A stretch of DNA of 52,542 nucleotides. Origin: Chloroflexota bacterium (GTDB lineage: Bacteria; Chloroflexota; Anaerolineae; Anaerolineales; Villigracilaceae). The stretch spans positions 1 through 52,542 of the forward strand of contig VGNE01000024.1 in assembly GCA_016866215.1 (NCBI GenBank), given 5' to 3'. The notes under the pieces are model-generated. The model did not search any database. It was not told the origin of the DNA and saw only the letters and a program-made list of their open reading frames with translations. This document shows, in pieces, positions 40,128 to 49,634 of the stretch; position 1 is the first letter of the stretch; the number at the start of each line of letters is the position of its first letter. A program made the translations under genes and the position numbers.

Positions 40128-40634
40128 CTACTTGCCTGCTTCAGGCTCAGCGGCTTTTTCGGATTTACGAGACTTGAGCACTTCCGGAATTTCAAAGCCC
40201 AGGGAGCGAAGTTTCTTCTTGGCCGCAGTCAATGAAGATTGGCCAAAGCCAGCGATCTCCAGCAAAGAGGCATCCCCTTCGGCGAGTTTTGCTGTGATCT
40301 GCCCAAAGGTCAAAACGCCGGCTTTCTTGAGTGCATCCAATGCGCGAGGTGCGAGGCCGAGGTCGTCAATCGAGCGGTCTGGAGAAGTCAATGACTCTTC
40401 CTTGGTTTTTTGCTGTTCTACATAGGTCTGGCGGGCGGAAAGTTTCTTGTAGAAGCGGTCCACCTGACCTTCAACATCAAGAAGTCTGGAGGACTCGCCC
40501 GTAAAGAACGGGTGGCAATTCGAACATACGTCAATGCGCAATTCCTTTTTTGTGGAAGTGGTCACCCATGTTTTGCCACAGGAAGCGCACGAGACGTTCG
40601 CTTCATAAACTGTAGGATGGATTTCTGCTTTCAT
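40128..40634 (-). CDS. rpmE: Ribosomal protein bL31 fused to a helix-hairpin-helix domain like the RNA polymerase alpha C-terminus
   Basis: 168 aa. Residues 1-70 are bL31 of the zinc type: [30 protein letters not shown] (four Cys) and the end VDRFYKK. After a short linker, residues about 88-152 ([61 protein letters not shown]) match the RpoA C-terminal domain pattern (two helix-hairpin-helix motifs). Ordinary bL31 is 66-90 aa. A charged tail ends the protein. The start follows the rpmA stop by 1 base. The domain may add RNA or DNA binding; this is inference. Confidence 0.88.
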
Positions 40635-40635
40635 C

Positions 40636-40896
40636 TTATTCGACCTCAGCGGGGACGATATTGACACGCTTGCGGCCATGCACAACATCGAACACCACGA
40701 TCCCATCCGCAATCGCGAACAAGGTATCATCTTTTCCAACCAATACATTAATGCCTGGCTTGATCCTGGTACCGCGTTGGCGCACAAGAATATTGCCGGA
40801 AAGAACAAATTGACCGGCATAACGCTTTACACCCAGGCGCTGGGCATTACTGTCACGGCCGTTGCGGGTTGATCCGCCACCTGTTTTATGTGCCAT
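40636..40896 (-). CDS. rpmA: Ribosomal protein bL27
   Basis: 86-aa large-subunit protein whose N-terminus reaches the peptidyl transferase centre. [40 protein letters not shown] and [16 protein letters not shown] are standard. It begins AHKTGGG directly, so no N-terminal cleavage extension of the Firmicutes type is present. It lies 11 bases after rplU and one base before rpmE. Confidence 0.97.
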
Positions 40897-44828: not shown

Positions 44829-44964
44829 AATCGCTTCCAAAGCGTTTCATCTCTCTTGTTTTATTCTGTTTCCGATGGTAAGTACTCCCGGCTTTTCATT
44901 GCCCTTGACCCAAATCTATCAAGTAACTAGAATAGTCACTATAGATGAAATTGGAGCAACGATA

Positions 44965-46215
44965 ATGACAAAACTAAGTTACAGCACTTTCGGATTAACA
45001 AATTTAGGGTTTTTGGATGCAATTGACGCTGTAGATAAGGCGGGGTATCCAGGAATTGAACTTTCCTTTCATCGTGATCAGTTTAATCCATTCGAAATAA
45101 CCGACAAATATCTTGCAAAAATAAAACAACGATTTGAAACAACCAATGTAAAACCTGCCTGCGTTGCAACCGCCTCGCATTTTTTCACACCTTCCAGGCC
45201 CCACGAACCTTCCTTGATGTGTATTGACATGGCCGGAAGAAAACGCCGCATCAACCTGGTCAAGAGGGGCATTGAAGTCGCCAGGAAATTGGATGTTCCG
45301 CTCGTTACATTTGGCAGCGGTTTTATAAGGGACGAACATGTTGTCAACCCATTGATAAATCCAAAAGAATTGCTGATGGACAGCATCCGCCAGTGTTTGC
45401 GGGAAATCAGGAAGGATGATGACATTACTTTGTTAATCGAGCCGGAACCAGGAATGTTTATTGAAACTCTGGACCAGGGCATTGATCTGGTCAACGAAGT
45501 TAATTCGCCTAACTTTAAATTGCATTTGGATTTGTGCCATAATTATTGCTCGGAAAACGACTATATTTCCGCTTTGGCAAAGGCCGCTCCCCATGCGCGG
45601 TACCTGCATGTTTCCGACGCCAAAGAGGGCTATAATTTAAAAATTATCAAGATGTCCGAAAACATGGCAATTGACTTGAATTTTGCAGGTTATTTGGTAT
45701 ATTCCCCTGAAAACGCCGATTTTCTATTGCTTGACAGGCAAAACCCAATTTATTTTTATGACGATCAACCCACCAAAGAACAGAAGAAAAGGATCGAAGA
45801 GACGGTGGATAGGACAAACATTAAAGAGGCTGTCGTTTATGTTGATTACAACAGCTTATTCGCTGGCTCAACCGAATTCGATAATGAAATTTTTACCTAT
45901 TTAATCTCCGTCCCCGGGTTGAGTTTTGACGTTTTGGAAAGAGCAAAACCGATCATTAGTTATTTAAGGGGAACTAAAAATTCAGACGGCAAAATATTAA
46001 TGGATAAGATGGTGGCAAACACGATTACAGGCATCGTTCATTTTCATGAAATTCCAGGGGAAGGCAGCCTAGATTTTGAGGCGAGCTTCAAAGCCTTAAA
46101 CGAAAACGGCTTTTCAGGGTACGCATCCGTTGAGTTGTATCACCATGTAGCTTCATGGGAAAAAGCCCTGGCGGATAGTTTTAAACACCTGTCTCAATAC
46201 GTCGAAGGAAATTAA
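44965..46215 (+). CDS. TIM-barrel sugar isomerase/epimerase-like protein with a large internal insert (EboE-like)
   Basis: 416 aa. The xylose-isomerase-type barrel is seen from YSTFGLTNLGFLDAID through LLIEPEPGMFIE (Glu159), KLHLDLCHNYC (Asp189) and RYLHVSDAKEGYN (His215), and resumes at VHFHEIPGEGSLDF (about 359) to ASVELYHH (Glu390); these four residues fit the metal site. Between about 225 and 352 lies a ~125-residue insert of unknown kind (YDDQPTKEQKKRIEETVDRT; IKEAVVYVDYNSLFAGST). GGAG precedes the ATG at 44965. It is the first gene of the AT-rich island. TIM-barrel proteins of this class are the EboE component of ebo clusters; identity is by context and fold. Confidence 0.8.
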   Translation: MTKLSYSTFGLTNLGFLDAIDAVDKAGYPGIELSFHRDQFNPFEITDKYLAKIKQRFETTNVKPACVATASHFFTPSRPHEPSLMCIDMAGRKRRINLVKRGIEVARKLDVPLVTFGSGFIRDEHVVNPLINPKELLMDSIRQCLREIRKDDDITLLIEPEPGMFIETLDQGIDLVNEVNSPNFKLHLDLCHNYCSENDYISALAKAAPHARYLHVSDAKEGYNLKIIKMSENMAIDLNFAGYLVYSPENADFLLLDRQNPIYFYDDQPTKEQKKRIEETVDRTNIKEAVVYVDYNSLFAGSTEFDNEIFTYLISVPGLSFDVLERAKPIISYLRGTKNSDGKILMDKMVANTITGIVHFHEIPGEGSLDFEASFKALNENGFSGYASVELYHHVASWEKALADSFKHLSQYVEGN

Positions 46216-46246
46216 GACCCAAACGACGAAGGTGTCCTGGAAATAA

Positions 46247-46405
46247 ATGATTACAAACAAGCTACTTGATCACAACAAGCGCCGGGGCATTCCAGCAATC
46301 TGCCAAATGCGCAAAATAAAACAACAACGCAATCAGACACATCAGCGCGAACAGGCTTTCATCAATTGGTTATTCAAATTGAATCTAGGAGTTAATAATG
46401 TTTAG
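46247..46405 (+). CDS. Doubtful small ORF between the TIM-barrel gene and luxS
   Basis: 52 codons (LLDHNKRRGIPAICQMRKIK), ending 8 bases inside luxS. LLDxNKxxGIPAIC faintly recalls the start of tagatose-bisphosphate aldolase GatZ-type proteins, so it may be a relic. No ribosome site. Otherwise this 180-base gap holds only the luxS ribosome site. Confidence 0.22.
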   Translation: MITNKLLDHNKRRGIPAICQMRKIKQQRNQTHQREQAFINWLFKLNLGVNNV

Positions 46406-46877
46406 TCTTGAACAATTGGGCTGGGAAGTCCATACAGTGGGGGAACTTGATCATAGAAAATTAAAAGCGCCTCATGTAAAGTTACGGTCTCTCACTAACG
46501 GTAAAAACGGTGACGCGGTTTATTCCGTTGACCTGCGCATCAATCAGCCAAATACAAATTATTTGTCGACAACTGAACTGCATTCATTTGAGCATTTTTT
46601 GCTTGCGGGTTTTAGAAAATACATGCCAGAAAATTTTATCTGCGTGGCTCCAATGGGCTGCCAGACGGGGTTTTACCTTGTATTGTTGAATGAAGGCAAT
46701 GCGCATAAAATTTGCAGTGTGTATGAGTCCATTTTAAACGATATTTTAATTGCAGAGGAAGTGCCCTACGCCAATATACGGGAGTGTGGCCATTTTGAGA
46801 ACCACAATTTAGACCTGGCAAAAGATATTGCCAGGAGGCTGTTGGATTCCAAATCCAGTTGGCGGCAGGTTTTATGA
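46398..46877 (+). CDS. luxS: S-ribosylhomocysteine lyase (LuxS)
   Basis: 159-aa LuxS, which splits S-ribosylhomocysteine into homocysteine and DPD, the precursor of autoinducer-2. All active-site elements are present: HSFEH gives the metal ligands His62 and His66 and the base Glu65; PMGCQTGFY gives the catalytic Cys88; RECGHF gives the third ligand Cys130. The N-terminal ELDHRKLKAPHVKL also matches the family. Length fits (E. coli LuxS is about 170). TAGGAG precedes the ATG. Its stop overlaps the start of the cyclase gene (ATGA). In this setting it may recycle the by-product of the methyltransferase two genes downstream, or supply a C5 unit; a stand-alone quorum-sensing role is less obvious. 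Confidence 0.92.
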   Translation: MFSLEQLGWEVHTVGELDHRKLKAPHVKLRSLTNGKNGDAVYSVDLRINQPNTNYLSTTELHSFEHFLLAGFRKYMPENFICVAPMGCQTGFYLVLLNEGNAHKICSVYESILNDILIAEEVPYANIRECGHFENHNLDLAKDIARRLLDSKSSWRQVL

Positions 46878-48019
46878 CACACGAAATGCGTAAATGGCAT
46901 ATCTCATATCAACGAACTATTGAATATGAGGTTGTCAGCTGCCCCAATCTTTTTCATCCACAGAATGGAGCTTTGTTATCTATAGGTAAAAAAGAGAATA
47001 CCCGTAGGTTTGTTGTTGTAGACAGCAACATAGAAAAGTATTACTCAACCGAGATAAAGGATTTTTTTAAGTACCACAAAATTGACGCAAAGATCCTAAC
47101 CTTCCCAGCGGGTGAAAAAAACAAATCCATAGATAATTACCTCTGGATTTTGCGCGAATTGGATATGTTTCCCATCAATCGCAGGGATGAGCCGATCATC
47201 GCCATTGGCGGCGGCGTTCTTACTGATGTGGTTGGGTTTGTCGCCAGCAGTTACCGTCGCGGAGTACCGCATATTAAAATACCGACAACCTTGATGGGGT
47301 ATGTTGATGCCTCGGTGGGAATCAAGAGCGGGATCAATTTCAACAGCAACAAGAATCGGCTGGGCTCATTTGAACCCCCCAAAAAGGTCTTTTTAGACAG
47401 GACTTTTCTGACAACCCTGCCAAAACGCCATATCCTGAATGGCGTTTGCGAAATTCTAAAATTAGCCATCATTAAAGATACCTCATTATTCGAATTATTG
47501 GAATCGCATGGGGCTGAATGTGTTAATTCAAAATTTCAAGATGAAATTGGCGCATTGATCCTTGACCGTGCTGTCGGGGCAATGCTAGAGGAGTTGGAAC
47601 CTAATTTATTTGAAGATGACCTGGCACGCAGGGTTGATTTCGGGCACACTTTTAGTTATGGATTTGAAACCTTCCACGATACGCAACTACTTCATGGCGA
47701 AGCGGTCCTTATCGACATGGCAATCTCGGCAATACTAGCCGCATCCAGGGATTTATTATCCAAACAGGAATTGAACAGGATATTCGATCTAATCACCAAG
47801 CTGGGCGTCGTTCTAATTGACGATCTTGTAAACCCCGATCTGTTATGGAAAACACTGAATGAACGCAAGTACCATAGAAATGGGTTGCAAAGAGTCCCAT
47901 TGCCTGACGGGTTGGGAAAATGCGTCTTTGTAAACGACATAAAATTCGAGGAAATACAATCTGCTTGCAAAAATCTGGAAAACTGGACGGAAATCAATGA
48001 CACAATTCACGAATACTGA
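46874..48019 (+). CDS. Sugar-phosphate cyclase, 2-epi-5-epi-valiolone synthase-like (EboD-like)
   Basis: 381-aa member of the 3-dehydroquinate-synthase superfamily. It carries the signatures of C7 cyclases rather than of dehydroquinate synthase: GGGVLTDVVGF (112-122), PTTLMGYVDASVGIKSGINF (137-156), NKNRLGSFEPPK (159-170), LNGVCEILKLAIIKD (188-202) and DFGHTFS (His258) with LLHGEAV (His274). Such enzymes cyclise sedoheptulose-7-phosphate to valiolone- or gadusol-type products using NAD and a metal. Dehydroquinate synthase usually reads GGGVVGDLAGF and KNLIG. The ATG at 46874 overlaps the luxS stop. The cyclase member of ebo clusters (EboD) belongs to this superfamily. Confidence 0.87.
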   Translation: MTHEMRKWHISYQRTIEYEVVSCPNLFHPQNGALLSIGKKENTRRFVVVDSNIEKYYSTEIKDFFKYHKIDAKILTFPAGEKNKSIDNYLWILRELDMFPINRRDEPIIAIGGGVLTDVVGFVASSYRRGVPHIKIPTTLMGYVDASVGIKSGINFNSNKNRLGSFEPPKKVFLDRTFLTTLPKRHILNGVCEILKLAIIKDTSLFELLESHGAECVNSKFQDEIGALILDRAVGAMLEELEPNLFEDDLARRVDFGHTFSYGFETFHDTQLLHGEAVLIDMAISAILAASRDLLSKQELNRIFDLITKLGVVLIDDLVNPDLLWKTLNERKYHRNGLQRVPLPDGLGKCVFVNDIKFEEIQSACKNLENWTEINDTIHEY

Positions 48020-48719
48020 TTCCAAAGAGATAAAGAAGTTCGATAAGGTTGCCCAAATTTGGTGGGACCCAAAAGGCTCCATGGGCACTTTGCACACCAT
48101 CAACCCTCTGCGCATGAAATTCATCACCGAAAACCTGAATATGACTAATTGCAAAATTTTGGACGTGGGCTGCGGAGGCGGCATTTTAGCCGAAGCTATT
48201 GCAAGGTCCGGCGCGCGAGTAACAGGAATTGACTTGTCTGAAGCATCCCTTGAAGCGGCAAGACAGCACGCTAGAGAACAAGGCTTGAATATTGAATATC
48301 GTTATGAAAACATTGAAGAAGTTGCAGAAAAACATGCGGGTGAATTCGACGCAATAACCTGCATGGAAATGCTGGAGCATGTTCCAGAGCCAAATAAAAC
48401 CATCACAGCTTGCTCGCGGTTGTTAAAACCTGGCGGCCACGCCTTTTTTTCGTCGATAAACCGTACCCCCAAGGCATTTCTATTCGCAATCATAGGCGGT
48501 GAATACATTCTGCGCCTGTTGCCAAAAGGCACTCATACCTATAAACAATTAATTCGCCCAAACGAATTGAAAAAATGGGCACAGGAAAACGGTCTGGAAT
48601 TCCTGCGTCTTTCCAGTTTAATTTACAATCCATTCAACGGGATATTTAAGGTTGAGGAAAAAGAAGACATAAACTACATGGCGCATTTCGTTAAAAAACA
48701 ATCGTCGGATAAGGCGTAA
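47997..48719 (+). CDS. UbiG-like SAM-dependent O-methyltransferase
   Basis: 240-aa class I methyltransferase strongly resembling UbiG, the ubiquinone 3-O-methyltransferase: KKFDKVAQIWWDPKGSMGTL, LHTINPLRMKFI, LDVGCGGGILAEAIARSGAR (SAM site, about 55-74), AITCMEMLEHVPEPNK, FFSSINRTPKAFLFAIIGGE and GTHTYKQLIRPNEL. Chloroflexota use menaquinone and no other ubiquinone genes are here, so another substrate is likely. It overlaps the cyclase gene by 23 bases. SAH from this reaction could be recycled via LuxS once the adenine is removed. The proteobacterium-like sequence suggests transfer. Confidence 0.85.
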   Translation: MTQFTNTDSKEIKKFDKVAQIWWDPKGSMGTLHTINPLRMKFITENLNMTNCKILDVGCGGGILAEAIARSGARVTGIDLSEASLEAARQHAREQGLNIEYRYENIEEVAEKHAGEFDAITCMEMLEHVPEPNKTITACSRLLKPGGHAFFSSINRTPKAFLFAIIGGEYILRLLPKGTHTYKQLIRPNELKKWAQENGLEFLRLSSLIYNPFNGIFKVEEKEDINYMAHFVKKQSSDKA

Positions 48720-48722
48720 CAT

Positions 48723-49634
48723 ATGAAACGTTTTTTTGCGTTGTCGAGAACTACCCATGGTATTTTGGATCTGGCCACACCTGCCTTTTGTGCTTTACTA
48801 TGGCTGGGCGGCTTTCCGCAATTGAGGGTAATATTACTTTCGTTATTTACAGCTTTTGCAGGATACACTGCCGTATATGCTCTAAATGATTTGGTTGGTG
48901 TAAAAGATGACAGGGAAAAATTTGCTGAGAATGGCATTAATCCGGGTTATTCAGTTGAGGCTTCCGAGCAGCGGTATCCTCTGGCGCGGAATTTATTAAG
49001 TTTAAAAAACGGCTGGCTTTGGGCGGGAACCTGGTTTATATTGGCCCTAATAGGTTCGTATTTGCTTAATCCCGTTATCGTTTTTATCCTTCTTACTGCT
49101 GCCGTTTTGGAGATCATTTATTGTCTTTTGCTTAAAGTCACCTACCTGAGAACCCTTGTGAGCGGGGTTGTTAAGACGAGCGGTCCCATTGCCGCAGTTT
49201 TTGTCGTGGATTCTAATCCTTCACCATATTTTTTGTTATTGCTGTTTGTCTGGTTATTCATGTGGGAAATAGGTGGGCAAAATGTACCGGCGGACTGGAA
49301 TGATACAATTGAAGACAGGCGTGTTAATGCAATAACAATTCCTATTCGATTTGGCGTTGAAAAAGCAGGGTTTATCGTTATAGCAACATTAGCGCTTACG
49401 GTTATCGCAAGTTGTTTTTTACCATTAGTTTCTCCTGCCAACCTTGGCCTGCCTTATATTTTAGCAAGTTTGCTTCTTGGATTTGTTTTTCTTTTAAAAC
49501 CGGGTTTTAAACTTTATAAATTTAATGAAGGGCGTTATGCAGCTAGACTGTTCGACATGGCCAGTCATTATCCCTTAGCACAATTAGTACTAATATCTAT
49601 TTCCCTGGTTATATCTAATTTTATTGGTCAATAA
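48723..49634 (+). CDS. UbiA-family prenyltransferase (EboC-like)
   Basis: 303-aa integral membrane prenyltransferase with about eight to nine helices. Both Asp-rich motifs that bind the prenyl diphosphate through Mg are present: YALNDLVGVKDD (about 52-63) and ADWNDTIEDRR (about 190-200; Asp191, 194, 198). It starts 3 bases after the UbiG-like stop. In the ebo clusters of cyanobacteria and pseudomonads the UbiA-type EboC is the membrane component. It probably attaches an isoprenoid to the product of the preceding enzymes; the acceptor is unknown. Confidence 0.88.
   Translation: MKRFFALSRTTHGILDLATPAFCALLWLGGFPQLRVILLSLFTAFAGYTAVYALNDLVGVKDDREKFAENGINPGYSVEASEQRYPLARNLLSLKNGWLWAGTWFILALIGSYLLNPVIVFILLTAAVLEIIYCLLLKVTYLRTLVSGVVKTSGPIAAVFVVDSNPSPYFLLLLFVWLFMWEIGGQNVPADWNDTIEDRRVNAITIPIRFGVEKAGFIVIATLALTVIASCFLPLVSPANLGLPYILASLLLGFVFLLKPGFKLYKFNEGRYAARLFDMASHYPLAQLVLISISLVISNFIGQ

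Follow-up and report, generated by a model that had tools for sequence, protein, structure and literature searches.

A conserved five-gene operon joins a distinct LuxS subfamily to an EEVS-type cyclase and may make a prenylated C7 cyclitol

LuxS is usually taken as an enzyme of the autoinducer-2 (AI-2) and S-adenosylhomocysteine (SAH) pathway; what might it do inside an operon of sugar, cyclitol and prenyl-transfer enzymes? The question is raised by contig VGNE01000024.1 of a Chloroflexota bacterium (assembly GCA_016866215.1), of which 52,542 nucleotides, hereafter the window, were analysed. Five open reading frames (ORFs) at 44965-49634, all on the plus strand, were confirmed to encode, as the initial annotation had stated, a TIM barrel, LuxS, a cyclase, a UbiG-like methyltransferase and a UbiA-type prenyltransferase. 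The reading preferred here, at a probability of roughly 0.6, is a patchily inherited or mobile operon whose product would be a C7 cyclitol derivative carrying a prenyl chain and an O-methyl group, with LuxS and the TIM barrel acting on the cyclase product.

The first gene (44965-46215, plus strand) encodes a TIM-barrel protein resembling sugar isomerases and epimerases (P0001, 416 aa; Pfam AP_endonuc_2, 8.3e-37), and is separated by 182 bases from the gene for a LuxS-type protein of a separate subfamily (P0002, 159 aa; 46398-46877, plus strand; Pfam LuxS, 3.6e-35). The coupling described for the last four genes was borne out: luxS overlaps by 4 bases (ATGA) the gene for a C7 sugar-phosphate cyclase, by sequence of the 2-epi-5-epi-valiolone synthase (EEVS) type (P0003, 381 aa; 46874-48019, plus strand; DHQ_synthase, 9e-37), which overlaps by 23 bases that for a UbiG-family O-methyltransferase (P0004, 240 aa; 47997-48719, plus strand; TIGR01983, 275 bits against an NCBI cut-off of 103), and a gap of 3 bases leads to the gene for a UbiA-superfamily prenyltransferase (P0005, 303 aa; 48723-49634, plus strand; PF01040, 6e-27). 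For the TIM barrel and the cyclase the ORF lister placed the start further upstream (at 44875 and 46859); the positions adopted here follow the starts conserved among relatives. The operon as a whole has 42.1% G+C against 50.9% in the remainder of the window, its flanking genes vary between genomes, and it was probably acquired as one unit. Reduced G+C was rejected as a sign of transfer valid for all loci, since in 17 of 20 the difference from the surroundings is under 5 points; the operon lies below them by 9 points in the window and by 6-9 points at loci L075, L095 and L103.

The neighbourhood around this type of LuxS, whose conservation the initial annotation had proposed to check, is kept. 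The loci compared (at least 43: the window's own, 18 others of its genus, 8 further loci, 15 from other named records, and L108) have the TIM barrel beside LuxS in 43, the cyclase in 42, UbiA in 41 and the methyltransferase in 40. Operon-type LuxS was found in 19 of 37 sampled genomes of the genus versus 0 of 24 others of the order, and the 18 other genus loci, some of them cut by contig ends, all have TIM barrel, LuxS, cyclase and UbiA in the same order and on the same strand. At one of these (L027, 8640-9764, genome G016) the cyclase is split over three frames and its neighbours match whole, which may be a sequencing error. The TIM barrel was matched in 20 of 41 genus genomes, these being the 19 LuxS carriers and one whose contig stops within that gene; one more genome gave a weak match (35% over 57 aa). 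Across the phylum, PF02664 LuxS occurs in 12 of 400 Chloroflexota genomes, all of one family, and in 12 of 12 it lies within the operon.

A scan with the LuxS alignment (one GTDB genome per species, best 80 of 559 relatives kept) placed the operon further afield. The 30 top loci (L075-L104) have TIM barrel, LuxS and cyclase in 30/30, and methyltransferase and UbiA in 29/30; L108 has TIM barrel and LuxS at a contig end, and at the remaining 49 LuxS loci none of the four partners was found in the flanks searched. The hosts are Anaerolineae, gammaproteobacteria, Desulforadius and Mycobacterium, with Mycobacterium angelicum, Spongiibacteraceae, Thermomonas, 'Xanthomonas sp.', Lysobacterales, other proteobacterial metagenome-assembled genomes (MAGs), Desulforadius tongensis and Zooshikella as those outside the Chloroflexi by record title; the LuxS copies of L093 and L031 are near-identical and do not count as independent. 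Plasmid records gave 30 with LuxS, all below 60% identity to the window's copy, of which 10 were fetched and 9 used, H9 (L175), with a LuxS match in two pieces, being excluded. Operon flanks differ from genome to genome, and since no gene family besides these five is common to over 7 of 28 stretches, the conserved unit is the five genes. They stand together in a gene table beside nirS of SURF MAG 42 (PMC8756737, Table A1); this table holds the single occurrence each of 'LuxS' and 'valiolone' in the accessible text of the paper, where no discussion of the five genes was found. No other printed mention of the set was found in open-licence PubMed Central (PMC) papers.

The LuxS of the operon is, by its sequence, a distinct subfamily with an intact catalytic site and changed substrate-binding residues. 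With residue numbers that we take to be those of Bacillus subtilis, anchored on motifs, His11, Arg39, HxxEH, Cys84 and Cys126 are retained in 42/42 operon copies, while Ser6 is replaced by V/I/L, Phe7 by G and Asp78 by S/C, again in 42/42, and Arg65 is lost in 34/42; the comparison set (58 sequences, 49 from the scan and 9 from plasmid records) has Arg65 in 58 and Asp78 in 55. The N-terminal positions could not be read in one comparison row, and another shows E/K at positions 6/7, probably a false pattern match. The residues changed in the operon copies presumably contact the amino-acid end of the substrate. The same residue pattern was found in L097, outside the 42, and in four mycobacterial copies. 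Against 22 comparison sequences the 42 form a single clade (100/100) on a long branch, and P0002 scores below the cut-off of 10/10 NCBIfam LuxS equivalogs listed, the best at 133.4 bits (cut-off 208) and 123.8 bits (cut-off 158). Its model (monomer, predicted local distance difference test score (pLDDT) 93.9) matches solved LuxS structures at template-modelling (TM) scores of 0.77-0.87 by query length (0.86-0.87 for Helicobacter pylori LuxS), and the LuxS fold, the metal site of HxxEH plus Cys, Cys84 and Glu57 are all present. The operon proteins thus share with S-ribosylhomocysteinase LuxS the fold, metal ligands, Cys84, Glu57, Arg39 and His11, and differ from it in the replaced Ser6, Phe7 and Asp78, the separate clade, the link or fusion to a TIM barrel, and the lack of any apparent connection with the SAH pathway. 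According to the available parts of the literature, Glu57, Arg65 and Asp78 are important in substrate binding and a conserved Phe stacks on the active-site core (PMC2656534), and Cys84 moves protons in the modelled carbonyl shift (PMC3907816).

For the TIM barrel, the AlphaFold2 model of P0001 (pLDDT 91.7) was compared with solved structures using VIA-align (Z 27.6-29.8, root-mean-square deviation 2.1-2.8, 250-275 residues aligned); among 50 matches listed, many of them tied, are ketose 3-epimerases, IolI and xylose isomerases. E159, H187, D189, H192, H215, D218 and E390 are identical in 30/30 rows, and E159, D189, H215 and E390 are, by analogy, presumably metal ligands; P0001 has a ketose 3-epimerase-like fold with the Glu-Asp-His-Glu set, whose metal role is taken by analogy. 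Residues 222-360, an additional segment of some 140 aa outside Pfam's top-scoring stretch, are somewhat less conserved (0.71 vs 0.78 and 0.82). By family and fold the protein could act on ketones, as isomerase, epimerase or dehydratase. In two hosts it is joined to LuxS in a single ORF: Desulforadius (L103, 6699-8477, 592 aa), where the cyclase adjoins the fusion gene, and Zooshikella (L108, 6837-8444, 535 aa), where the cyclase stands on another contig, is cut by the contig end and is followed by a gene for a major facilitator superfamily (MFS) transporter. Since these hosts keep TIM barrel, LuxS and cyclase, and no relative of P0005 was found in the Desulforadius genome at E 0.001 or in that of Zooshikella, these three look like the core, with prenylation and methylation as additions. 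The MFS transporter gene directly after the operon-type cyclase of Zooshikella lies at L188:8582-9751, minus strand.

The closest solved structures to P0003 are 4p53 (ValA, 317 bits) and then 5tpr (251 bits), which was deposited as a 3-dehydroquinate synthase (DHQS) and which we take to be a desmethyl-4-deoxygadusol synthase (DDGS); the next DHQS entries score at most 150 bits. It shares 42% identity with two EEVS-type sedoheptulose-7-phosphate cyclases from plasmids, 36% with a DDGS-type protein of Nostoc (record name 3-dehydroquinate synthase) and 30% with EboD. In a tree with 14 of the 29 operon cyclases (midpoint root, long branches flagged by the program), these 14 form a clade (100/99) on the EEVS/DDGS side, with EboD and DHQS on the opposite side. 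D255 and H334 are as in ValA, D and H being present in 14/14 operon cyclase rows and A and T in two DDGS rows; we take these to be the positions that separate EEVS from DDGS, which Kean et al. are said to have described in 2014. EboD-type rows differ from the operon cyclases at R162, S261, R335 and Q339, and fingerprint sites that tell such cyclases apart are described in the accessible text of PMC4426668. The operon cyclase is thus assigned, by sequence comparison, to the EEVS type within the sedoheptulose-7-phosphate cyclase group, and the possibility raised by the initial annotation that it might act as an ordinary dehydroquinate synthase is, as far as sequence can show, not borne out.

The known EEVS pathways, those of validamycin (ValA) and gadusol, are the nearest relatives in this respect, as the operon cyclase groups with EEVS/DDGS and shares the D/H pair of ValA. 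In gadusol synthesis a methyltransferase-oxidoreductase gene accompanies EEVS (available sections of PMC4426668). Of four EEVS loci examined, two carry a gene for a TIM-barrel protein or sugar isomerase/epimerase close to the cyclase, a methyltransferase gene lies nearby in one, and 4/4 have no annotated LuxS or prenyltransferase, whereas the operon has both. A sedoheptulose-7-phosphate cyclase on a Rhizobium rhizogenes plasmid (L163:5881-11724) lies near genes for a ROK family protein, a TIM-barrel protein and a methyltransferase.

The last two enzymes were each compared over 11 aligned operon rows. P0004 is conserved across its 11 rows, and its score above the UbiG cut-off suggests that it acts on a prenylated phenol bearing a free hydroxyl. 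P0005 matches PF01040 and has the second Asp-rich motif, DWNDxxED; its first motif reads NDxxGxxxD in place of NDxxDxxxD in 11/11 rows, and three EboC copies have NDxxDxxxD.

In mycobacteria the operon lies beside a transporter. In M. angelicum an ABC ATPase and an FtsX permease, then a lipocalin (CrtC/AttH-like) gene, stand upstream, the operon starts 16 bases past the lipocalin stop, and at its far end the UbiA gene runs 8 bases into the end of a polyprenyl synthetase gene that points towards it; the flanks hold mscL (PF01741) and, by reading of the sequence, FmdB-like, 5-formyltetrahydrofolate (5-FTHF) cyclo-ligase and galU genes. The exporter (58.9% G+C) and the operon (55.3%) lie below the flanks (66-67%). 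The order of the flanks presumably matches that around Rv0986-0989c of M. tuberculosis, where polyprenyl synthase and galU would also be neighbours. Among 248 mycobacterial genomes the exporter lipocalin was found in 14, seven at 59-100% identity near full length and seven weak, and in five of the seven genomes with the close lipocalin (G454, G575, G485, G526 and G665) the whole operon sits between exporter and polyprenyl synthase, the TIM match of G485 being in two pieces. The mycobacterial operon loci are L204, L205, L206, L207 and L095. In G488 the exporter is present, with no synthase or operon in the stretch searched.

We know of no report on the cargo of the Rv0986-0988 transporter. The position of the operon between exporter and polyprenyl synthase offers a concrete guess, and suggests that the ancestral cargo of an Rv0986-0988-type exporter may be the product of this operon. 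The Rv0986-0988 island, 5.6 kb long and with 53% G+C, is reported to have been acquired by transfer and to have phenotypes in host-cell binding and in the phagosome (available part of PMC3982062). The mycobacterial loci share with it the ABC ATPase, the FtsX permease and the CrtC/AttH-type lipocalin beside mscL, and differ in that the published account, as far as its accessible text goes, describes no biosynthetic genes there (PMC3982062). In the available text of a 2018 paper on horizontal transfer in Mycobacterium, Rv0986-Rv0987 is named at a single point, while LuxS and valiolone are absent.

Taken together, a prenylated, methylated cyclitol-derived product, as the initial annotation had suggested, is reasonable on sequence grounds, because C7 cyclase, UbiG-type and UbiA-type genes are joined in a conserved operon. 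The cyclase would convert sedoheptulose-7-phosphate to 2-epi-5-epi-valiolone or a close relative; TIM barrel and LuxS would in turn carry out a carbonyl shift, an epimerisation and/or a water elimination on the cyclic keto-polyol, the enediol and beta-elimination chemistry of LuxS being transferred from S-ribosylhomocysteine to the cyclitol; UbiA would attach a prenyl chain, the UbiG-type enzyme would methylate a ring hydroxyl, and in mycobacteria the product would probably leave through the adjoining Rv0986-0988-type transporter. A cyclitol is preferred over S-ribosylhomocysteine as the LuxS substrate because the catalytic residues are kept and the substrate-binding ones largely are not, and because both the fusion partner and the third core gene belong to sugar or cyclitol enzyme families.

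Substrates and enzyme order in this pathway are inferred from sequence, and several observations weigh against it. The methyltransferase is absent at the genus locus L022 and at L103 and broken at the mycobacterial locus L207 (G665); UbiA is missing at L103 too, and, as noted, neither that genome nor the Zooshikella one yielded a relative of it. Even where UbiA is present, prenyl transfer by P0005 is not certain from its sequence, because one Asp of the usual first motif is gone. EboD rows also carry the D/H pair of ValA, which alone is therefore no proof of EEVS. In LuxS, Arg65 is still Arg in 8/42 operon copies, the window's included; Tyr stands at position 78 in 3/58 comparison sequences, so Asp78 is not absolute, and 49 of those 58 come from one scan, the best matches being mostly Bacillaceae. 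A nucleosidase scoring over its family cut-off occurs in 7/20 operon-bearing genus genomes. As to export, G477 (L208) has exporter and synthase without the operon, its five proteins having no match there better than E 0.56, and at E 1e-4 no FtsX-, lipocalin- or polyprenyl-synthase-like gene was found in 58 non-mycobacterial stretches (some being the same place twice; L095 excluded).

One alternative is that the operon LuxS is an ordinary S-ribosylhomocysteinase recycling the SAH made by the methyltransferase, as the initial annotation had offered as one of two ideas. Its catalytic residues are intact, the methyltransferase is usually in the same operon, and the nucleosidase occurrences just given would feed it. 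However, SAH hydrolase is present in 41/41 genus genomes and in 8/9 other hosts, and methylthioadenosine (MTA)/SAH nucleosidase over the TIGR01704 cut-off, found in 13/41 genus genomes, turns up about equally often with and without the operon (7/20 carriers vs 6/21 non-carriers, Fisher p 0.74), G020 and G025, both carriers on single contigs and 99% complete, having none over the cut-off. PNP and MTAP are present in the genome of the window, where the search for an Mtn/Pfs nucleosidase turned up a relative scoring below the NCBIfam cut-offs (L073:952-1632, minus strand, 226 aa) and none above them. LuxS is moreover retained at L022 and L103 despite loss of the methyltransferase, is single-copy in 9/9 non-Chloroflexi hosts tested, is fused to the TIM barrel in two, and has Ser6, Phe7 and Asp78 replaced. 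Since SAH hydrolase is present in every genus genome examined, the nucleosidase does not track the operon and LuxS is single-copy, it does not look like an SAH recycler, and on these sequence patterns that role is unlikely, with a chance somewhat below one in ten. The nucleosidase relative of the window's genome adjoins a CinA-like ORF near a cytochrome oxidase subunit II-like ORF (both by reading), and similar low-scoring matches occur in many genus genomes.

Equally improbable is the second of those ideas, that LuxS makes 4,5-dihydroxy-2,3-pentanedione (DPD) from S-ribosylhomocysteine and that DPD or a relative enters the product: fold and catalytic site are intact and the operon context suggests that LuxS serves this pathway, but the substrate-binding Asp78 (available text of PMC2656534) is replaced in 42/42, as are Ser6 and Phe7, and the supply of S-ribosylhomocysteine is patchy. 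An improbable third course, though slightly less so, would have LuxS cleave the thioether of another thiol on the C7 sugar or cyclitol, the thiol leaving after carbonyl migration. It would stay close to the known chemistry of LuxS, which is thioether cleavage (accessible part of PMC3907816), and would suit an enzyme with changed substrate-binding residues (those named in the available text of PMC2656534) and kept catalytic ones; yet there is no conserved thiol-handling partner gene beside the operon, given that no sixth family recurs in more than 7 of 28 stretches.

The least probable account, at very long odds, is a divergent ebo cluster with the same product as other ebo clusters. The available sections of PMC5133447 and PMC9235831 describe ebo (EboA-F) as one operon with a UbiA-type prenyltransferase, a sugar-phosphate cyclase and a xylose-isomerase-like TIM barrel, patchily distributed over phyla, and the three superfamilies common to the operon and EboE, EboD and EboC (accessible text of PMC5133447) speak for kinship. 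Ebo has EboA, EboB and EboF, whereas LuxS and UbiG stand in the five-gene operon; in the 28 stretches no sixth family recurs in more than 7, no search with the EboA, EboB or EboF models having been made. At E 0.001 the TIM_EboE model (NF035939) matches nothing in the genome of the window, but it scores 468-480 bits, over its cut-off, in 5/251 Chloroflexota genomes, none of them among the 12 LuxS carriers, and P0001 matches EboE by blastp at only 25% over 67 aa (E 3e-4). For P0005, blastp against EboC gave no match at E 1, and no EboC model is among its 13 NCBIfam matches at E 0.001, NCBIfam being a collection that presumably contains one. The cyclase, of EEVS type, is nearer to EEVS-type proteins than to EboD in the identities given above, and the tree puts five EboD-type rows in a clade of their own (100/100), separate from the operon cyclases. 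Ebo membership was therefore rejected on NCBIfam, blastp, the cyclase tree and the UbiA motif. The 'Ebo-like' label of the initial annotation fails, as cyclase and TIM barrel belong to other branches of their families and P0005 shows no match to EboC, and its statement that the three match EboE, EboD and EboC in family holds at superfamily level and not below. An actual ebo cluster (cyclase, EboE, UbiA, phosphodiesterase, EboA) was seen on a Ketogulonicigenium vulgare plasmid (L165:2913-10358), preceded by two Gfo/Idh/MocA oxidoreductases.

If the prenylated C7 cyclitol reading is right, the LuxS fold would have a second function, the product would be a new class of prenylated C7 natural product, and quorum sensing should not be inferred from luxS alone, the Chloroflexota luxS genes found (12 in 400 genomes) being all of the operon type. 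The operon would then be of the C7-cyclitol biosynthetic kind, and the function of its LuxS subfamily would be new. A bolder version, which we hold to be possible but distinctly unlikely, makes the product an aromatic head group of a lipid, formed independently of shikimate: together, the TIM barrel and LuxS would move the carbonyl stepwise around the ring made by the cyclase and eliminate two waters, with no redox cofactor involved (2-epi-5-epi-valiolone C7H12O6 - 2 H2O = C7H8O4, a trihydroxybenzyl alcohol), UbiA would prenylate the phenol, and the UbiG-type enzyme would methylate a catechol oxygen to give a ubiquinol-like compound, the cargo of the mycobacterial exporter. The host bacteria are not known to make ubiquinone. 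Were this version true, the tubercle bacillus would have retained an exporter whose biosynthetic pathway is missing from it.

Elsewhere in the window, at 40128-40820 on the minus strand, lies an ORF like ribosomal protein bL31 with an additional C-terminal domain, which by eye resembles the helix-hairpin-helix/RNA polymerase alpha C-terminal type.

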